A DNA stretch of 23,576 nt from a virus. The notes beneath the pieces are model-generated. The model worked only from the letters and a program-made list of their open reading frames with translations, had not been told where the DNA came from and ran no database searches. Both the position numbers and the translations under genes were made by a program. Positions 2,296-18,503 of this stretch are shown here, in pieces. The stretch covers positions 1 to 23,576 of IMG/VR virus record IMGVR_UViG_3300023179_000521. One strand, written 5' to 3'. How positions within the stretch are numbered: the first letter of the stretch is position 1; each line of letters starts with the position of its first letter.

Positions 2296-5200
2296 ATGAC
2301 AAATTATTTATCAATACGATATGATGTTATAAATAGTATAATGAACTATTTACCAGCCCCTACCCCAGGATTAGCTGATTTACTAAGTGGAATAAATTTA
2401 TATGATAATGATATTAGAGAATCATTACAAAGTCTTAAATTAGATAGTAAAATACCTGTTTCTCAAGATATTTACGATGATATAGTAAATTTTTTAATTA
2501 CTCTTCCTGAAATTAATTTAAATAATTCTAAAACTATTATATTAAAGTTTAAATTTGAAGATGATGAAACAATAGAAAATGTAGAAATAATTGTTAAAGA
2601 TATAGAAGGAAAAAAAACATATGTGACTAAAGGTGGTCCATTAGTACCAATAAAACCTTGGCCTATTATATATCCATTATTAGGTACTTGTCAAGACTGT
2701 TTAAAACTTACTTTTCAAACAGACAATAAATATAATTTTACAGGTAATTTAGGAGGAAGTTGGTTAGGTAATTATAGAAATGGACAAAAACAATATCAAT
2801 TTTTTCTTCCTGATTTTTCTCAAGCTGCTGTAACAGCTGGAAATTATGGGGTTGCTACACAATATATAATTTATTGGCAACCTTCAGTTAATACTGCTTA
2901 TGTGGACATAAATGGCCAAGTTCAAGTTGTTACAGGTAATAGATGGACTGCTGTTTTGTCATCATCTATTGGTACCCCTCAAGCACAATATAATACATTT
3001 TATCATAAAAATACATTTATAAACGGAAGTACTATTGAAAAAGCTGCTTGCCCTTATTATAAAAATACTCCTACATATTGGAATTTTGGAGGAACTAATG
3101 GAAATTTTCGTGTACAATCAGTTATCTTACCTGCACCTCCACCAAGTTATGAAGGTACTTATAGACCACCATGCCCAACATATAGACCAACAACAGGAAG
3201 TGTAATTTGGGGATATAGTTGTAACCAACAATCTGCATGTTTGCCTGCACCTTCAGGTTCAGCTCAATACTTAACTATAGAACAATGTGAGGCAAATTGT
3301 ATAAACCCAACAAGTTCACAAAACACAGGTAGTTATGGATGGACATGTATTAATCCTTACCCTGGATATTCAACTTGTATTTCCGTTACATCATCTTATA
3401 CTGGAGGAACTGTATATCCTACTCAACTAACTTGTTTAGAAAATTGTGCTCCTACTTATGGATATAATTGTGATAACTTTACAGGCCAATGTATCCCAGG
3501 AACTCCTTCAAATACTGGTTCATTTAATACTTTAATTGATTGCCAAGAAGCAAATTGTGGAGGCCTTCTTCCTCAACCTACTACTTGCTCTTGTGACCCA
3601 TTAACAAGTGTAGTAAATAATAATTTCCCTAATGGCCCTTCAGGATTTTATGCATTTCCAAGTTCAATAGGTACTTGGACTTTTAATTTAGGATATGCTC
3701 AAGGTACTACTACAACTCAATTTAATACTAATAGTGCTGGTTTTGCTGAAACTTCAAGTATGTTTTTAGGAAAAGGTGAAGTACTTAATGTTAGTTGTTC
3801 ATACAGTTTATGTTTTCAAGCATGGCAAACTACTGATGTTCCTTCTTCAACTATAATTTTTGACGGTTCAGCTCCATATCCTTTTCAACCTTCAACAGGA
3901 ACTTATCCTGTTCCTAATGCTCAAATATTTACTGGTCTTACAAGTGTTCCTACAGCATATACATGTAATTTTGTTGCTGGATCCCCTAATTTTAGATTTT
4001 ATTTGGGAGTAGCCGCAGGTGCTGTTGGAAGAATTAATATTGATAATGTTTGTATAACTTTAATAGGATGTCCTCCTACAGCATCAGATTGCACTATATC
4101 AGGATCTGCATATTGTTATGAAAATGTTGAATACCCTTGTTTATGTCCTGTAGGATATACTGCTAGTTTAAATGGTAATTGTGTCCCTACAGGATCTATA
4201 ACTGTACCACAAATTATAACTGGCCAAGCATTCCCCAATACCCCAACAAATCATCAACAGTGGGGCTATGGGTGCCCTAATTTATATTATTCATATGGTA
4301 CAAATGGAATATCTCCAACATGGCCTGCAGGGCAATCTTCTCCAAATTTTGGTAATCCTAATGTTTTTAATACTACAAGACAATTTGATATATTAAGACA
4401 CCCATGGTGGCGCCAACCTTTTAGTCCTACCTATCCTTATTCTACCGCCCCAGGATATCAAAATAGATTTATGAACCAAAACATGATTTATCTTCCTTTA
4501 TCAAATACATTTTTAGGAGGCGGATCATACATTAATGTTTCAGCTTCTAAAACAATGTATGCTTGTATTGCTGCTGATGATGGGTTTAGATTAAAATTAA
4601 ATGGTACTACTCTTGTTTCAATAGGTACTTCTACTGCAATAACACCATTTAATTCTCAACATTTTCAAGCTCGATTTACAACTTCTAACCCTTACATAGC
4701 ATCAGATTTTTACACTCCTGGGAATTATACTTATACATCATGGCATCTATTCCCAATTACTATGCCTTCAGGGTGTAATGCTATAACATTAGAAGGTATA
4801 GATATAAACAATGTTGCTTCTGGTTTTGCAGGTTTAATACTTGATAATACTGCTACTGAATTAATAAATGCTACAAGTGAAAATGATTTAAACATTATAT
4901 GGAATGCTAAAAATGATTTAATTTATAATCTTAATGCAGGTATTACAGCTTCATGCCCTCCAAATACTACTCCTTTAGGCCCTGACCCATGTGACTTATG
5001 CATATCAGGATTACCCCCAATTCCATGTGGTGATTGCATTGAATGTTTTAATGGAATAATTTATAATGGGTATGTAGTTGATGCTGGAGGATACACCCAA
5101 CTAGGACGTGGGTCAGGTGGTCTAGTTAATACTAATCCTTTAGATAATCCAATTAACACTTGGGAAATTCCTAATGAAGCCGCTTGGAATACATTAATAA

Positions 5201-6111
5201 CTTATTTAAATGGTGGTGTAGCTCCATTAGCAACAACAGGTAGTTTAGGAACAGTTGCTGGTGGAAAAATGAAAGACTACACTAGAGATATAAATGCATC
5301 TTGTTGGACTTTCCCAAATGCTGGTGCTCAAAATAATTCTAATAGCAGCGGATGGGCTGGTATAGGATCAGGTAAAAGAAATAATTTAGGAATTTACTCT
5401 GGATTTGGAACTGATGGATATTGGTGGAGTGCTAATTCTTCACCTAGTATAACTCAATTAAATACTCGAGAATTAAAACATTGGTCATTTGATGTTTATA
5501 AAAACACATATACTAAAAATCATGGTCATTCTATTAGATTAGTTCGTCCTGCTGTTGCTGGTGAAGTTAATGGATCTACAATATTTAATGCTTATAAAGG
5601 TAACAATGGTGTATTATATGATGGTATAGTTATTGGAACGCAAGTTTGGATTAATAAAAATTTAGCTGAAACAAAATACAATACGAACACTAATATTAGT
5701 GTTACTACCCCTAATGCTCTTTGGACTTCAGCTACTACAATCCCAGTATTATCTACTTCATGTTTTTATAACAATATTATAAATAACACTAGTAGTTTAG
5801 ATGGAAATATCAACCCAGCAACAGGATTATGTTATGAATACCCATCTTTTTATATTTACCAAAAATGTGGAAAAACTGAAACTTTAATTCAAGAAGTTTC
5901 AGGTAGTACTACAACTCCTGGGAAAATACAAAAAGCACCTGATGGTACTTGTTGGTCATTTGTACAACAACTTAACACTAATCCTACTATTAGTGCTTCT
6001 ATCTATAGCACAACAAATTATTTTTCAGGAAGTAACTATGTATACGATGATTGTGATGAATGTAATGCTATTCATACTATTTATACTAGATTTAATACTA
6101 AAAATTGTTAA
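2296..6111 (+). CDS. Large modular virion protein with Cys-rich repeats and FISUMP-type segments
   Basis: A 1271-residue protein, probably a fibre or adhesin. Residues 1-120 are a helical and beta N-terminal part that may attach to the virion. Residues 306-422 hold three Cys-rich units of the form G-Y/W-x-C...C...C-x3-C. About 435-595 resemble a jelly-roll carbohydrate-binding module ending in INIDNVCI. About 745-870 contain AADDGFRLKLNG, as in PA14-like or other sugar-binding modules. From about 915 there are two FISUMP-type pieces. The first has WEIPNEAAW, GGKMKDY, GYWWSAN and GHSIRLVRP, normally the C-terminal half of that domain. The second has DGIVIGTQVWINKNL, normally the N-terminal half. 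FISUMP domains are known mainly from Bacteroidetes and Fibrobacter surface proteins. The function is inferred from modules and context, and no enzyme signature was seen. Confidence 0.65.
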   Translation: MTNYLSIRYDVINSIMNYLPAPTPGLADLLSGINLYDNDIRESLQSLKLDSKIPVSQDIYDDIVNFLITLPEINLNNSKTIILKFKFEDDETIENVEIIVKDIEGKKTYVTKGGPLVPIKPWPIIYPLLGTCQDCLKLTFQTDNKYNFTGNLGGSWLGNYRNGQKQYQFFLPDFSQAAVTAGNYGVATQYIIYWQPSVNTAYVDINGQVQVVTGNRWTAVLSSSIGTPQAQYNTFYHKNTFINGSTIEKAACPYYKNTPTYWNFGGTNGNFRVQSVILPAPPPSYEGTYRPPCPTYRPTTGSVIWGYSCNQQSACLPAPSGSAQYLTIEQCEANCINPTSSQNTGSYGWTCINPYPGYSTCISVTSSYTGGTVYPTQLTCLENCAPTYGYNCDNFTGQCIPGTPSNTGSFNTLIDCQEANCGGLLPQPTTCSCDPLTSVVNNNFPNGPSGFYAFPSSIGTWTFNLGYAQGTTTTQFNTNSAGFAETSSMFLGKGEVLNVSCSYSLCFQAWQTTDVPSSTIIFDGSAPYPFQPSTGTYPVPNAQIFTGLTSVPTAYTCNFVAGSPNFRFYLGVAAGAVGRINIDNVCITLIGCPPTASDCTISGSAYCYENVEYPCLCPVGYTASLNGNCVPTGSITVPQIITGQAFPNTPTNHQQWGYGCPNLYYSYGTNGISPTWPAGQSSPNFGNPNVFNTTRQFDILRHPWWRQPFSPTYPYSTAPGYQNRFMNQNMIYLPLSNTFLGGGSYINVSASKTMYACIAADDGFRLKLNGTTLVSIGTSTAITPFNSQHFQARFTTSNPYIASDFYTPGNYTYTSWHLFPITMPSGCNAITLEGIDINNVASGFAGLILDNTATELINATSENDLNIIWNAKNDLIYNLNAGITASCPPNTTPLGPDPCDLCISGLPPIPCGDCIECFNGIIYNGYVVDAGGYTQLGRGSGGLVNTNPLDNPINTWEIPNEAAWNTLITYLNGGVAPLATTGSLGTVAGGKMKDYTRDINASCWTFPNAGAQNNSNSSGWAGIGSGKRNNLGIYSGFGTDGYWWSANSSPSITQLNTRELKHWSFDVYKNTYTKNHGHSIRLVRPAVAGEVNGSTIFNAYKGNNGVLYDGIVIGTQVWINKNLAETKYNTNTNISVTTPNALWTSATTIPVLSTSCFYNNIINNTSSLDGNINPATGLCYEYPSFYIYQKCGKTETLIQEVSGSTTTPGKIQKAPDGTCWSFVQQLNTNPTISASIYSTTNYFSGSNYVYDDCDECNAIHTIYTRFNTKNC
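3211..3561 (+). repeat. Three Cys-rich coding repeats
   Basis: Three units beginning at 3211, 3337 and 3460 encode G-[YW]-x-C-x(5-9)-C, a Gly/Ser/Thr-rich spacer, then C-[QEL]-x-N-C (C-x3-C). Each unit keeps four cysteines, which suggests two disulfides per unit in an extracellular structure. Confidence 0.7.
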
Positions 6112-6132: not shown

Positions 6133-8070
6133 ATGGCTTTTGAATATAAAGATGAAATAAAAAATATCCTTTTATCAATGTCCCTTGATGAACGATTCCC
6201 TGCAGGAGCATGGGTAGGATATGGATTTGAAATGGGATACAGTGCTTCATCAGCAGCTTCAGCTTCAATTAACTTAGCATGTGTTTCTTCTAATGTAACA
6301 ACTACAGGTTCAGGTTCACTTAATATAAATGGAATTACTTTATATTATACTGGATCTAATGTTGCTAACAATTCAACTACAATTTTTATAAATACTTCAT
6401 CATTTGCAAATAGTACAATAAATAGTTTTATTGTTACTTCTTCTATTATATTTAATGTAAGTAAATCTATAGCACCTTATAGTGCTTCTTTACAATATAT
6501 AACAGCAAGTGTTGGATCATTATTAAACTTAACTTCAACTACTCCTGTAGGAACTTTAGGAAATAATTTTTACTATGTATCCTGTTCTTCAGCTCCAACA
6601 GTATATTTTGAAGGAGGAACTAACCAAACAGGCTCAGTACTTGGAGCAGTAGCAACATATGATGAAAATATTTATTCTACAGGAATTGCTACTTTACAAC
6701 TTTATATTCCTTCTTCTTCATATTTAGATAGTGGATCAGAAATATCTTCTTCAATAGCAACAATAGTAAATAATTATACTAATTTTATTTGGTCAGGAAG
6801 TGATAATTTTATTTCAACTCAAATTGTAGCTACTGTTGGAGAAGTAAATCCATTAATTTGCAATAATGTAAGTTGTTATACTGCTGATAATGGGTATTGG
6901 ATTTATGGTCCTCTTCCAAGTCCATTAACTTTAAGTAATTTTACTCCTAATTCAAGTTTTGGAATAGGTCTTGGTAATAGACAAATGAGAAGGCCAATTG
7001 TAGGAGGAGTATCAATTACTTCAACTTCTAAAATTGGGAGTGTTGGCACAATGGGACTAGTTTGCCAAGACTCAGCCTCAGGAGCATTAGTTGGGTTAAC
7101 TAATAACCACGTAATAATTAGAGATCCATTTTATACTAATCAAAGAACATTTGTTAGCCCACAAAATGAATATGATCTTCTTGATGCTAACTCTACCCCA
7201 GACTTAGTTTACCAAGATGGAGAAAACACTGCCCTTTTATCCCCAGGAACTAATAGAGAAGTTGGTAAAGTATTAAGATATGTACCTTTATATACATCTG
7301 CTTCTACAATAATTAATCCTCTATCTACTAATAGAGTAGATGGAGCTATATTCTCTTTATATTGTACAGCTAGTGATGGAGGCCAAATTTTAAGTTTTAC
7401 TTCTTCTTTATCTAATACTGGATCTTTTCAACAATATGGGTTAGCTTATACTTCATCTATGCCTTTTGCTACTACAGCTGAAATAAATAACCTTTTTACT
7501 ACTAACCCAGTTATTTATAGCTCAGGTAGGACTTCAGGAGCAAAAGGAAACAACCCATGTCCTTTAAGGTTTACAGGATTTGTAAATTCAACTATAGCAT
7601 ACCCATTGCAAGGAGTAAACACTCCAGCTTATATGCAAGATTTAATTGCATTTGTTAAACCTCAAAATAGTGCTTCTTGGAGCCCTGGAACCCCAAATAC
7701 TCCAGCTAATCTTTGCCCATTCCCAGCTTGGTATGGAGATTCAGGATCTACTTTAATAGCTAATATTGGTGGAGTATGGAAAATTATTGGTTTAGTATTT
7801 GCTGGGAATTCATCTTCATTTACCCCAATTGTTGTAGGTGGAGTTTTAATTAATTTATTTTATGCTTCTGATCAAGGATACGCTTGTAGAATAGATCATG
7901 TAGCAAATGAATTAGGGATTAAAGCTTGGACTGGAAGTATTGCACCTGTAGTAGATAATAATAGTATTACTTATGTTACAGTTTCAGGAAGTAATGATAC
8001 TAAAATTTTAAATTGTAGTGGTTCAAATTATTGGCAAGTTGGACTTACTACTCGACATAAATTTTGTTAA
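6133..8070 (+). CDS. Virion-associated protein with a trypsin-like serine protease domain
   Basis: A 645-residue protein. Residues 1-270 are Ser/Thr/Asn-rich and beta-like, resembling a fibre or attachment region. From about 290 a chymotrypsin-fold peptidase can be read. MRRPIVGGVSI and GTMGLVC form the opening strands, LTNNHV carries the likely catalytic His (H326), RVDGAI the likely Asp (D403) and WYGDSGSTL the likely Ser (S537), followed by the strand WKIIGLVFAG. The order and context match bacterial proteins with TNNHV/GDSG motifs. All three triad residues are present, so activity is plausible. It sits inside the virion block, and the same AT-rich style suggests it is a virion component. 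It could digest host surface proteins or process neighbouring fibres; which is unknown. A non-catalytic binding role cannot be excluded. Confidence 0.72.
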   Translation: MAFEYKDEIKNILLSMSLDERFPAGAWVGYGFEMGYSASSAASASINLACVSSNVTTTGSGSLNINGITLYYTGSNVANNSTTIFINTSSFANSTINSFIVTSSIIFNVSKSIAPYSASLQYITASVGSLLNLTSTTPVGTLGNNFYYVSCSSAPTVYFEGGTNQTGSVLGAVATYDENIYSTGIATLQLYIPSSSYLDSGSEISSSIATIVNNYTNFIWSGSDNFISTQIVATVGEVNPLICNNVSCYTADNGYWIYGPLPSPLTLSNFTPNSSFGIGLGNRQMRRPIVGGVSITSTSKIGSVGTMGLVCQDSASGALVGLTNNHVIIRDPFYTNQRTFVSPQNEYDLLDANSTPDLVYQDGENTALLSPGTNREVGKVLRYVPLYTSASTIINPLSTNRVDGAIFSLYCTASDGGQILSFTSSLSNTGSFQQYGLAYTSSMPFATTAEINNLFTTNPVIYSSGRTSGAKGNNPCPLRFTGFVNSTIAYPLQGVNTPAYMQDLIAFVKPQNSASWSPGTPNTPANLCPFPAWYGDSGSTLIANIGGVWKIIGLVFAGNSSSFTPIVVGGVLINLFYASDQGYACRIDHVANELGIKAWTGSIAPVVDNNSITYVTVSGSNDTKILNCSGSNYWQVGLTTRHKFC

Positions 8071-8098: not shown

Positions 8099-10558
8099 AT
8101 GAATTATTCAATTTGTTTAGATCCAGCTAGTTTTAATTTAGCTAGTTTATCAGGTAATAATCTTTTAATATACACTAATGATGATAACTTTACTACCCCA
8201 GTAGCTTCAGTTCCATCTTCAGTATTGTTTCCTCCACCAACTGGAAATTGCCCTTATACAATTTCAGGGATTCCTGATGGAGCTACTCAATTATTAATTG
8301 TAGATTATTGTCTTAGTGAACTCCCAGCAGTACCTCCACCAGCTAATACTTTAACTGGTGAATGTTGTTATGCTTTAATAGATATTAATCCATCACTTTG
8401 TGGTGATTTTTGTGAAAGCTGCGGAATAGGATTTGATATTTATGCCTTAACTACTACTGGTTCTATTATAGCAGGTAATTTAACTAGTTCTTGTGGCTCT
8501 GTAACAGATTATGTTATAGGATGGTATTTAAATGGAAACTACTCATCCCCAGTTTTTACTTCAGGATTTGGCCCTCAATTTAATTATCAATCAACCCATC
8601 CATTAACCGCTTCAGCAGCACCATTAGTAGCTGCTGGTAACTGGGAAGGTATTATTCATGATGTTATTATTAATGGAACTCAATATTCTACAATTAGTGG
8701 GTCAGGAAATGGAACTAATATACCATTCCAAAGTTGTTTTGGAACAACAGTAGCTGCTCCTTTAAAATGTGATAATGGAAGTTTTCCTCTTCCATATTCA
8801 CACCAAAAAACATTTACAGCAGCTTCAAACGGAATTCCCCCAGCTCCATCAACTTTTACATATCAATTATCATCTAGTATAAATTATTTTGCTTATGTAT
8901 TTAATGGTCAACAAATATGGGATGAACTTGAAATTAAATATATAAGTGGTAATCCAAATGGAACTACTAACCCTTCTCTTTATTCTCAACCTATTTATTT
9001 AGAAAAAATTAAAATAGGAGCGAATGCTCCTTTTCCATGGTTAGGATTTAATACACCTTATATTGCTGCTTTGTCTGGATCACCTTTTTATAATTATCCG
9101 GCATCAGTTAGTGCTACATTTCTCGAAAGAGTTCTTACTTTAACTGGTTTAGAAACTAGTAGTATCCCTAGTTTGCCTGATAAATTAGAAGTAACAGTAA
9201 CTCCTAATACTGAAAGTTTTACAACAAATTGGGATCTTTACATGCAATGTTTAGAAGATTTTAATTGTACTAATTGCACTTTTGATAGTAATCCTCCATT
9301 TAAAATTTCTAACGTAACACTTGAAAGATGGACAGGAAATCCATGCTTACAACAAAAAATACGAGTAGCAGCTAGTGGTTGTAATGCTAATTCTGATTTT
9401 TTTACTTACACTGATGCTGTACAACAAAGTAATGGATTTTTTCCTATAACCCAATCTTCTCCATTTTTTGGATGGATCCAGTTAGGAGCTACTAATATAT
9501 GTAGCCAAACAAACTTTATTAACCCATCAACACCTTGTGATGTTCCTTCAAATAGTATAATAACATTTAATAAAACAAATGTTCCTTCTAATGGTATATC
9601 ATCAACAGGTCAACCTTTAGGACAAATTTATATGACTTTTAATAATGTTAATGATTTTTTACATTATAAAAATTTATTAGATGCTGAAGAAGCCTCATTA
9701 AACTCAATTTTAGGCCCTATAACATACGATTGTACTAATCAAAAGTATTACTCAGGATATTCATTACAAGTACCTTCACAAGCTGTTAATAATACTTGTG
9801 GAGACAATACTACTAGATTAACATATTATATTCCTAGAACAGCTTATCCTAATATTATTTATGTCCAAAACCCAGCTAATAATTTTTGGTCAATAACTAT
9901 TCCAATGCCTGAAGTATTAGATTGTTTAAATTTTTCAGGGTGCACTAATTGTTATGTTCCATGGAATACATATAGAACTTATAATTCTGGGATTCTTGAT
10001 AAATTTAATTCTTCTAGTTACGCTGATCCTTTTAATAATACATCATATACTAATAATTTTGGGGCTAAATATGTACAACCTTGGAGTCGTATTTATTTTG
10101 TTACTAGCTCAGCATTACCGATATCTTATTATTCTTCAAGTGTGCTTGGGTTTTGGGATACTGCTAAAGCTCAATATACATCAAGATATTCTCAAGAAAC
10201 AGTACCATTTGTACCTAATCCTTTAAATCCTGGATCTTATACTAATTTAGAACCTTTAGGAGGTGTACCTTGCCCCAATTGGACTACTAAATTTTCTAGT
10301 TCACTTTCTAATACCCAGAAGGGGCAGGGAGGAAATGCTTATTATTTCCATTATGAATATGTTTTCCCTAATCTGCAAGATAATATTAATTTTGCAGGGA
10401 ATAATGATTTTCATTTATTTACCAAAGTTACTAATAATTCAGGAGTACTTCAAACTAATCCATTGTTAATTTATTCTTATAGCCAATCTATAGCTACAGT
10501 ACATCAACCCCAATTCTTTACAGGTGGTACTCCTAGCTTAACAATTCAGTCTTTCTAA
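8099..10558 (+). CDS. Large virion protein of unknown fold, probable fibre or adhesin
   Basis: An 819-residue protein that I do not recognise. It begins MNYSICLDPASFNL and is rich in Ser, Thr, Asn, Pro, Tyr and Gly, with predicted beta character throughout. There are several paired-Cys clusters: GECCYAL and CGDFCESCG near residues 88-110, NCTNC near 390 and SGCTNC near 615. The cysteine pairs and composition resemble the two preceding proteins, so it is probably another extracellular part of the same fibre or adhesin apparatus. There is no signal peptide, transmembrane segment or recognisable catalytic motif. It is the last gene of the block, 30 nt before a strong terminator, and lacks its own late-type promoter element, so it is probably transcribed from one upstream. 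Confidence 0.6.
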   Translation: MNYSICLDPASFNLASLSGNNLLIYTNDDNFTTPVASVPSSVLFPPPTGNCPYTISGIPDGATQLLIVDYCLSELPAVPPPANTLTGECCYALIDINPSLCGDFCESCGIGFDIYALTTTGSIIAGNLTSSCGSVTDYVIGWYLNGNYSSPVFTSGFGPQFNYQSTHPLTASAAPLVAAGNWEGIIHDVIINGTQYSTISGSGNGTNIPFQSCFGTTVAAPLKCDNGSFPLPYSHQKTFTAASNGIPPAPSTFTYQLSSSINYFAYVFNGQQIWDELEIKYISGNPNGTTNPSLYSQPIYLEKIKIGANAPFPWLGFNTPYIAALSGSPFYNYPASVSATFLERVLTLTGLETSSIPSLPDKLEVTVTPNTESFTTNWDLYMQCLEDFNCTNCTFDSNPPFKISNVTLERWTGNPCLQQKIRVAASGCNANSDFFTYTDAVQQSNGFFPITQSSPFFGWIQLGATNICSQTNFINPSTPCDVPSNSIITFNKTNVPSNGISSTGQPLGQIYMTFNNVNDFLHYKNLLDAEEASLNSILGPITYDCTNQKYYSGYSLQVPSQAVNNTCGDNTTRLTYYIPRTAYPNIIYVQNPANNFWSITIPMPEVLDCLNFSGCTNCYVPWNTYRTYNSGILDKFNSSSYADPFNNTSYTNNFGAKYVQPWSRIYFVTSSALPISYYSSSVLGFWDTAKAQYTSRYSQETVPFVPNPLNPGSYTNLEPLGGVPCPNWTTKFSSSLSNTQKGQGGNAYYFHYEYVFPNLQDNINFAGNNDFHLFTKVTNNSGVLQTNPLLIYSYSQSIATVHQPQFFTGGTPSLTIQSF

Positions 10559-10636: not shown

Positions 10637-11329
10637 ATGACAGAAAACACACGTAGAAAAAAACACACAGAACTAGAATGTGTGCAAATAGGTTATGCAA
10701 ATGGAGTTGCACCTGGATTTCCACTTACTGAAAATGAAAAATGGAAAATGGTAGATGAAGCAGAAGAAGCTTATGGTAAATTTTTAGATGCTTTAGGATG
10801 CGATTGGCGAAACGATCCAAATTCAATGGAAACACCTCGTCGAGTAGCTAAAGCTTATGTATTTGATTTATGGGCAGGTAGATATACTGCAATGTCAGAT
10901 ATTACTTCATTCCCATCAGACGGATATGATGGTATTGTAATTGAAAGAAACATTCCAATTACTTCAATGTGTTCACACCACCATCAAACAATTGGAGGAG
11001 TAGTTCATATTGGTTATGTTGTAGGAAATGAAGGTAGAGTAATTGGTTTATCTAAATTAAACCGCATTGTAGAATTATTCGGCCGTAGAGGAGCTATTCA
11101 AGAACAATTAACTTCAGCTATCCATAACGCAGTAAACAAAGTATGTGAAGGAAACAGAGGTATTATCGTTACAGTAGTAGCAACCCACAATTGTGTATCT
11201 TGTAGAGGAGTAAAACACCAAGGTGCTTCAATGGTTACAACAAAAGCATCAGGTGTGTTTATGGAAAACAATAACCAAGCACGTAAGGAATTTTTCGATA
11301 GTATTAAAATCAATAATAGCGGACATTAA
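10637..11329 (+). CDS. folE: GTP cyclohydrolase I (FolE)
   Basis: A 230-residue protein of the T-fold FolE family. FolE opens GTP to dihydroneopterin triphosphate, the first step of both folate and 7-deazaguanine synthesis. Zinc ligands can be placed at C112 and H115 in SMCSHHH and at C186 in THNCVSCRG, with the catalytic H184. The conserved core is intact: VHIGYV, GRVIGLSKLNRIVELFGRR (132-151), the QEQLT helix, and the GASMVTT segment (196-202). The usual CEHH reads CSHH here. The first 40 residues are an N-terminal extension with little conservation. With queD and queE at the left end of the window, the likely role is supplying the preQ0 branch. It opens a group with the next genes and follows the terminator at 10588. 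The start follows AAAGTTAT, with no Shine-Dalgarno sequence. Confidence 0.95.
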   Translation: MTENTRRKKHTELECVQIGYANGVAPGFPLTENEKWKMVDEAEEAYGKFLDALGCDWRNDPNSMETPRRVAKAYVFDLWAGRYTAMSDITSFPSDGYDGIVIERNIPITSMCSHHHQTIGGVVHIGYVVGNEGRVIGLSKLNRIVELFGRRGAIQEQLTSAIHNAVNKVCEGNRGIIVTVVATHNCVSCRGVKHQGASMVTTKASGVFMENNNQARKEFFDSIKINNSGH

Positions 11330-14961: not shown

Positions 14962-15351
14962 ATGAACAAAGAACAATTACGTATGCAAATGTTAGCTGGT
15001 ATCCTTACAGAAGGACAATATAAAGCTATGTTAAATGAAAATATGGAAGATCCAAATTATATTGCTCAATATATAGCTGGGGGGTTTGACACCTATATCA
15101 TCCCGGGATCACCTAAATTCACTTATGGTCCTGATGATGACGGGACTTATCATTTAGAATTTCAATTAGGATTTGATGATTTAGATTATGATACCCCCGA
15201 AGAAGAAGAAGAAGAACTAGAAAGACAAATAGGTGGCTATTATAGTGGAGGCCCAGGACAAGCTTTTAGCCGAACTCGTGTATCATATGAGGGTGAAAAC
15301 AATGGAAAGTACATATTCTCTGTTTATAAAAGAGGAGGATATGATGTTTAA
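14962..15351 (+). CDS. Predicted internal virion protein with conserved leader (family member 1)
   Basis: A 129-residue acidic protein that I cannot assign to a known family. The first 26 residues contain LRMQMLAGILTE (6-17) and YKAMLNE (20-26), nearly identical to the starts of the proteins at 21827 and 23381. Both segments end in L-x-E, like the L/I-x-E sites cleaved by the T4 prohead protease gp21. The rest contains an Asp/Glu-rich stretch (about 70-88, a run of GAA codons) and Gly/Tyr-rich segments. It stands alone between a late-type promoter element and a terminator, so it is probably a single-gene late transcript inserted among replication genes. The inferred role is a protein packaged into the capsid or trimmed during head maturation. 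Confidence 0.6.
   Translation: MNKEQLRMQMLAGILTEGQYKAMLNENMEDPNYIAQYIAGGFDTYIIPGSPKFTYGPDDDGTYHLEFQLGFDDLDYDTPEEEEEELERQIGGYYSGGPGQAFSRTRVSYEGENNGKYIFSVYKRGGYDV

Positions 15352-16573: not shown

Positions 16574-16577
<4 letters not shown>
16221..16577 (+). CDS. Phage protein of unknown function with an AT-hook-like GRP motif
   Basis: A 118-residue protein. Residues 5-11 read KRRGRPA, which contains the RGRP core of AT-hook DNA-binding motifs and suggests binding to AT-rich DNA. The rest is a compact domain with FYIVKDTTNF, GKEVEKIVGYYSSFGNA and a helical tail containing WKEVKDGMESML. I believe similar proteins occur in other T4-like phages, but I cannot name a family. The ATG at 16221 is preferred over a GTG at 16197 that falls within the candidate promoter. 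Its stop overlaps the groES start by 4 nt (ATGA), so it is translationally coupled to the chaperonin genes. A role in replication, regulation or chaperonin function cannot be settled from sequence. Confidence 0.72.

Positions 16578-18503
<1,926 letters not shown>

Follow-up and report, generated by a model that had tools for sequence, protein, structure and literature searches.

The closest described relatives of the protein analyzed here are rice NARROW LEAF 1 (NAL1), an intracellular plant protease, and the bacterial NAL1-like peptidases, which are represented in Pfam by NAL1_N (PF25608) and Nal1_C (PF25819) and elsewhere by PHROG_20754, annotated as "protease". Our literature search found neither a described role for the bacterial members nor any account of a tail protease of NAL1-like or trypsin-like type. 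Among phage proteins, peptidase S74 is a known tail-fibre autoprotease. We examined a stretch of viral DNA of 23,576 nucleotides (IMG/VR record IMGVR_UViG_3300023179_000521, positions 1 to 23,576; hereafter the window), one gene of which encodes a protein that is, judged by profile comparison and structure prediction, a PA-clan serine peptidase of the NAL1-like family. This gene is a member of a four-gene cassette located between queE and folE, with the following features.

1191 to 2267, + strand: first cassette gene, encoding P358 (358 aa), which has NCxGGxxSF repeats, looks beta-helix-like by eye and gave no family match.
2296 to 6111, + strand: second cassette gene, encoding P1271 (1271 aa) with Cys-rich repeats and a Fib_succ_major (FISUMP) domain, identified by PF09603 and conserved synteny.
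6133 to 8070, + strand: gene of the NAL1-like serine peptidase (645 aa), a single uninterrupted ORF, assigned with the AF2 model and Foldseek.
6133 to 6249, + strand: first part of the N-terminal domain, residues 1-39 (helix 7-17, strand 27-36 in the AF2 model), conserved in all close relatives.
6250 to 6627, + strand: window-specific insertion, residues 40-165, absent from L001-L004, L013 and L015.
6628 to 6975, + strand: remainder of the N-terminal domain, residues 166-281, matched by columns to the N-terminal domain of other phage homologues.
6976 to 7947, + strand: predicted PA-clan (NAL1-like) peptidase domain, residues 282-605, delimited by hhalign to the cellular NAL1-like profile and by pLDDT.
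7108 to 7110, + strand: codon of the predicted catalytic His326, aligned with the His of NAL1 TN(H/R)HV.
7339 to 7341, + strand: codon of the predicted catalytic Asp403.
7741 to 7743, + strand: codon of the predicted catalytic Ser537 (GDSGS), present in 84 of the 86 phage-clade members listed.
7948 to 8067, + strand: conserved C-terminal tail, residues 606-645, with C628 and C645 invariant in alignment A1.
8099 to 10558, + strand: fourth cassette gene, encoding P819 (819 aa), whose N-terminal domain of ~80 aa is shared with the protease loci of other phage groups.

An alignment of close relatives (A1) matched the cellular/bacterial NAL1-like profile in hhalign (97.9%, E 5.5e-13, 224 columns), and a profile of the family matched the NAL1 chains with an E-value of 1.1e-16 and with H, D and S in register. 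The AF2 model of the window protein, for which a 68-sequence alignment served as input, has a mean pLDDT of 74.8 and a pTM of 0.79, and pLDDT exceeds 90 over most blocks of the protease domain; an earlier model built from five close sequences (pLDDT 29) was set aside. When the model was compared with the PDB using Foldseek, the best 14 matches were all rice NAL1 (E 4e-10 to 2e-7, probability 1.0). A preliminary description of this DNA had read the protein as a trypsin-like serine protease whose triad is complete. The complete triad is supported; "trypsin-like" fits the fold only. Residue 531, six positions before Ser537, reads proline where classical trypsin (S1A) has Asp189, the source of trypsin specificity, which counts against a trypsin-type preference for Arg/Lys.

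The match of the window protein to PHROG_20754 is weak (4.5e-4), and searches of Pfam and NCBIfam returned nothing, with no Pfam match at E<=1 to any model, PF25819, PF25608 and Trypsin included. Its relatives score only below or at the Pfam cut-off for PF25819/PF25608; the missed score is a matter of the library threshold and not a biological feature of the NAL1-like family. Close relatives on viral contigs (L001-L004, L013 and L015) show roughly 54-69% identity and all have the triad. Many further viral and bacterial relatives were supplied by a scan for the motif GDSGS...GLxFAG, which was used in place of a profile search of the genome contigs (A2) that gave no match.

The motifs LTNNHV, RVDGAI and GDSGS start at residues 322, 401 and 535 of the 645-aa protein, placing His326, Asp403 and Ser537 in one ORF exactly where the preliminary description had them; positions 6997-7812, on which it had focused, cover residues 289-560 and with them the core of the peptidase domain. 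Each of the three residues is invariant (68/68) in alignment A3 of phage and cellular homologues, for which H and S, but not D, were partly selected by the search pattern. Because this invariance spans phage and cellular homologues at three positions, the triad lies far beyond chance. In a second sample, picked by a different motif (SGRTTGxKG), all members whose catalytic domain is intact have H, D and S; the departures are a few partial ORFs and two second copies that are degenerate. Within the phage clade described below, 83 of the 86 distinct members listed have the full triad; two of the others are degenerate second copies and the third is an ORF truncated at a contig end. About half of these 86 were chosen by the Ser motif, and the part chosen by the other motif agrees on triad retention. 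As judged from sequence, the triad is kept under selection in the phage clade. Both L299 (ORFs at 2687 and 4032, - strand) and L354 (ORFs at 378 and 1636, - strand) have a second copy that has lost H, D and S next to an intact protease gene.

The protease had further been described as fused to a fibre-like region, following a Ser/Thr-rich N-terminus of about 270 residues. The Ser/Thr-rich region measures about 280 residues in the window protein and about 147 in every close relative. Since all close relatives lack residues ~40-165, nearly half of the long region is a window-specific insertion (~126 residues, in frame), which interrupts the N-terminal domain between its first and second predicted strands and is mostly modeled with pLDDT <50; it has no match in any locus retrieved and none in Pfam. 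Serine and threonine make up ~26% of residues 1-290 but still ~21% of the protease domain, so this content is no mark of a separate fibre. At the same place other phage members carry the N-terminal domain of the family (VGYGYK...V.KK.P..EL...TDV), and the alignment columns of the window N-terminus match it. Residues 166-281 comprise a strand (180-193), a helix (203-214), a second strand (229-234) and the pair C243/C248. The N-termini match the NAL1_N-type domain weakly in hhalign (20% over 25 columns); the strand-strand-helix-strand order of the model resembles that domain, which is clear in sister phage proteins. Minus its insertion, the window N-terminus is likely a diverged form of the family N-terminal domain. 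A fibre was rejected, as the window protein has no PHROG or Pfam fibre match and the region aligns with the family's own domain. Weak phmmer matches of the N-terminal region to ribosomal L30 among PDB sequences (E 0.0017) were judged spurious.

The term "virion-block protein", used in the preliminary description, is not supported if taken literally. By its polB gene the window's phage belongs to the T4 group. A relative of 173.8 kb (G001) encodes a gp23-type major head protein together with a portal, a terminase, sheath and tube; its head/tail genes lie at 49-68 kb and its cassette tens of kb away at 121-130 kb, again between queE and folE. The order P358, FISUMP protein, protease, P819 is kept in relatives, and P358 is present in every relative whose contig extends that far. 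The FISUMP domain of P1271 occupies residues 956-1084 (E 2.6e-10). In this protein (window 2296-6111) and its relatives there are repeats of ~35 aa (YGYNCxxNGCVxGxxxNTGxYATLxECExxC), which have no Pfam match and differ in copy number between phages. A profile of the N-terminal 100 aa of P819 matches proteins in the protease loci of other phages (E 2e-6 to 1e-3), a link that BLAST of P819 against those neighbors did not give. The ~80-aa domain (8099-8340) recurs as small ORFs or N-termini in L038, L134, L267 and L034, and is perhaps a shared attachment domain. None of P358, P1271 and P819 has detectable similarity to an annotated family whose identity would establish that they belong to the virion.

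Genes resembling queC, queD, queE and folE flank the cassette in G001 (117-131 kb; L013/L025), in L015 and in the window (10637-11329), which suggests 7-deazaguanine modification of the phage DNA. The queE-like gene of the window (7-carboxy-7-deazaguanine synthase type, 362-1143) is in two frames, split near 670, through either assembly error or decay; L013 and L015 carry it as one intact frame of 260 aa. The phage also encodes, at 16574-18503, a GroES-like protein and GroEL (TIGR02348, E 6e-200). Many unrelated proteins have a similar amphipathic start (LxxLIKEEIxxxL or NKExLRMQMLAGxxTE), for example the ORFs at 14962, 18799 and 21827 of the window and many in G001 (such as 19208, 44088, 45158, 47489, 69911 and 140443); it may direct them to the capsid, as the corresponding signal does in the internal proteins of T4. 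Rfam gave no match in the window. Signal peptides ending in ...GQ/FSQ/VAQ on G001 proteins, A-rich leaders with no obvious Shine-Dalgarno and 32% G+C in the window, and the FISUMP domain together suggest a Bacteroidota host.

In a tree of 132 sequences, 42 viral members and no cellular ones form a set (SH-aLRT 98) that includes the window protein and stands apart from the mixed cellular/viral part. When 395 Bacteroidota genomes were searched with profiles of the two tree parts, all family matches fell in the cellular part and none was a member of the virus-only clade. Two scans of uncultivated viral contigs yielded at least 86 distinct clade members (<90% identical), so the clade is common in such contigs and a protease of this kind is less unusual for a tailed phage than had been supposed. 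Queried with the window protein and with its relatives L004 and L079, the latter a clade member, tblastn found no match in 50,697 GenBank phage records.

Other phages supply the functional context. The protease is fused to Fib_succ_major in L097 (E 3e-27), to Gly_rich_2 in L125 (E 2e-20) and to DUF285 and PKD in L056 (E 1e-34); such fusions to adhesin-type domains often run through Ser/Thr/Pro-rich linkers, and C-terminal extensions of this type occur in 19 of the 79 C-terminally complete members among those listed. The strongest functional link is FISUMP, which is adjacent to the protease in the window and fused to it in L097. A tail sheath gene adjoins the protease gene in L075 and L036, a homologous gene is found in L071, tail tube lies a few genes away in L075, and a tail-collar/fibre family is located beside the protease in 10 loci. 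An association between proteases of this type and the tail and adhesin genes of other phages is supported. A large 19-locus neighbor group, joined partly by low-complexity TPT linkers, was not used.

We propose that the protein is a NAL1-like serine endopeptidase, predicted to be catalytically competent, that would work within the phage tail/adhesin module: carried on the particle beside the FISUMP-bearing adhesin-like protein, it may cleave a host-surface protein at adsorption, as tailspike depolymerases cut polysaccharide. To this reading, a particle-borne tail/adhesin protease most likely cutting a host-surface protein at adsorption, whose virion location and substrate we infer, we assign a probability of roughly 0.45. 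Counting against it are the position of the cassette outside the head/tail gene block in the window's own phage, the relatives L070 and L099, in which the neighboring genes are non-structural or belong to no identified family, and the intracellular nature of NAL1. Both functions put forward in the preliminary description, host-surface cleavage and maturation of neighbors, are plausible as putative roles. The second of them is the main rival, although we regard it as rather unlikely: the enzyme would trim itself or the adhesin/fibre proteins next to it, either while particles assemble or once they are released. It is kept adjacent to the large cassette proteins across relatives, fusion to an adhesin domain would place a cleavage site in cis, and tail-fibre autoproteases such as peptidase S74 do exist; however, the fused partner domains vary widely between phages, which fits target binding better than conserved processing, and the sheath or fibre neighbors vary between phage groups as well.

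Some of the same observations bear on a protease that cuts host proteins inside the cell during infection and is no part of the particle. The location of the gene between nucleotide-metabolism and replication genes in the window's phage, the absence of a recognisable signal peptide on the window protease and the action of plant NAL1 inside the cell would all suit it, but adhesin-type modules fused on Ser/Thr/Pro linkers and tail-gene neighbors in other phages do not, nor does the high Cys content of the cassette neighbors, which suits extracellular proteins; we consider this explanation improbable. Least probable is a domain that serves mainly as a structural or binding scaffold for which catalysis is not what matters: the triad-less copies in L299 and L354 would accord with it, but both losses sit beside an intact copy and nearly all distinct members listed retain the triad. 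Returning to a particle-borne protease, we tentatively picture the phage-specific clade as protein-cutting "tailspikes", modular virion enzymes with variable adhesin domains on flexible linkers that would target host surface proteins for cleavage. Equally tentatively, they could do for proteins what depolymerases do for polysaccharides, and be widespread in uncultivated phages, T4-like ones such as the window's included. Should the protease ride on the tail, many uncultivated phages would enter their hosts with the help of a proteolytic step at the cell surface, and the fused domains, being variable, would offer readable clues to host targets.

Compared with known systems, the protein resembles peptidase S74, the intramolecular chaperone of tail fibres, in that a protease domain is tied to phage adhesins; the catalytic site and mechanism of S74 differ, and the window protein has no match to it. 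With the prohead proteases of capsid maturation it has in common that both are phage-encoded serine proteases, but there is no prohead-protease match in the window protein and its predicted fold is that of chymotrypsin-type NAL1. A viral member of the wider family is the putative serine protease of Aeropyrum coil-shaped virus (Alphaspiravirus), annotated as trypsin-like (PMC7416610). This is an archaeal ssDNA virus, unlike the window's phage, and L063, which matches its protease (E 2e-25), groups with cellular members of the NAL1-like family and lies outside the window clade. The closest likeness is to the NAL1 family itself: the PA-clan fold, H, D and S in TNxHV, (V)DxA and GDSGS, the GRTTG strand motif and, in common with bacterial members, the GLxFAG ending. 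Unlike the cellular NAL1-like proteins, the window member has an H-to-S spacing of 211 residues, against ~130-165 in most of them, and longer loops; its N-terminal domain, probably a diverged one, bears an insertion; the protein scores below the Pfam thresholds; and it belongs to a separate virus-only clade, with which the NAL1-like family gains a viral branch in a testable setting.
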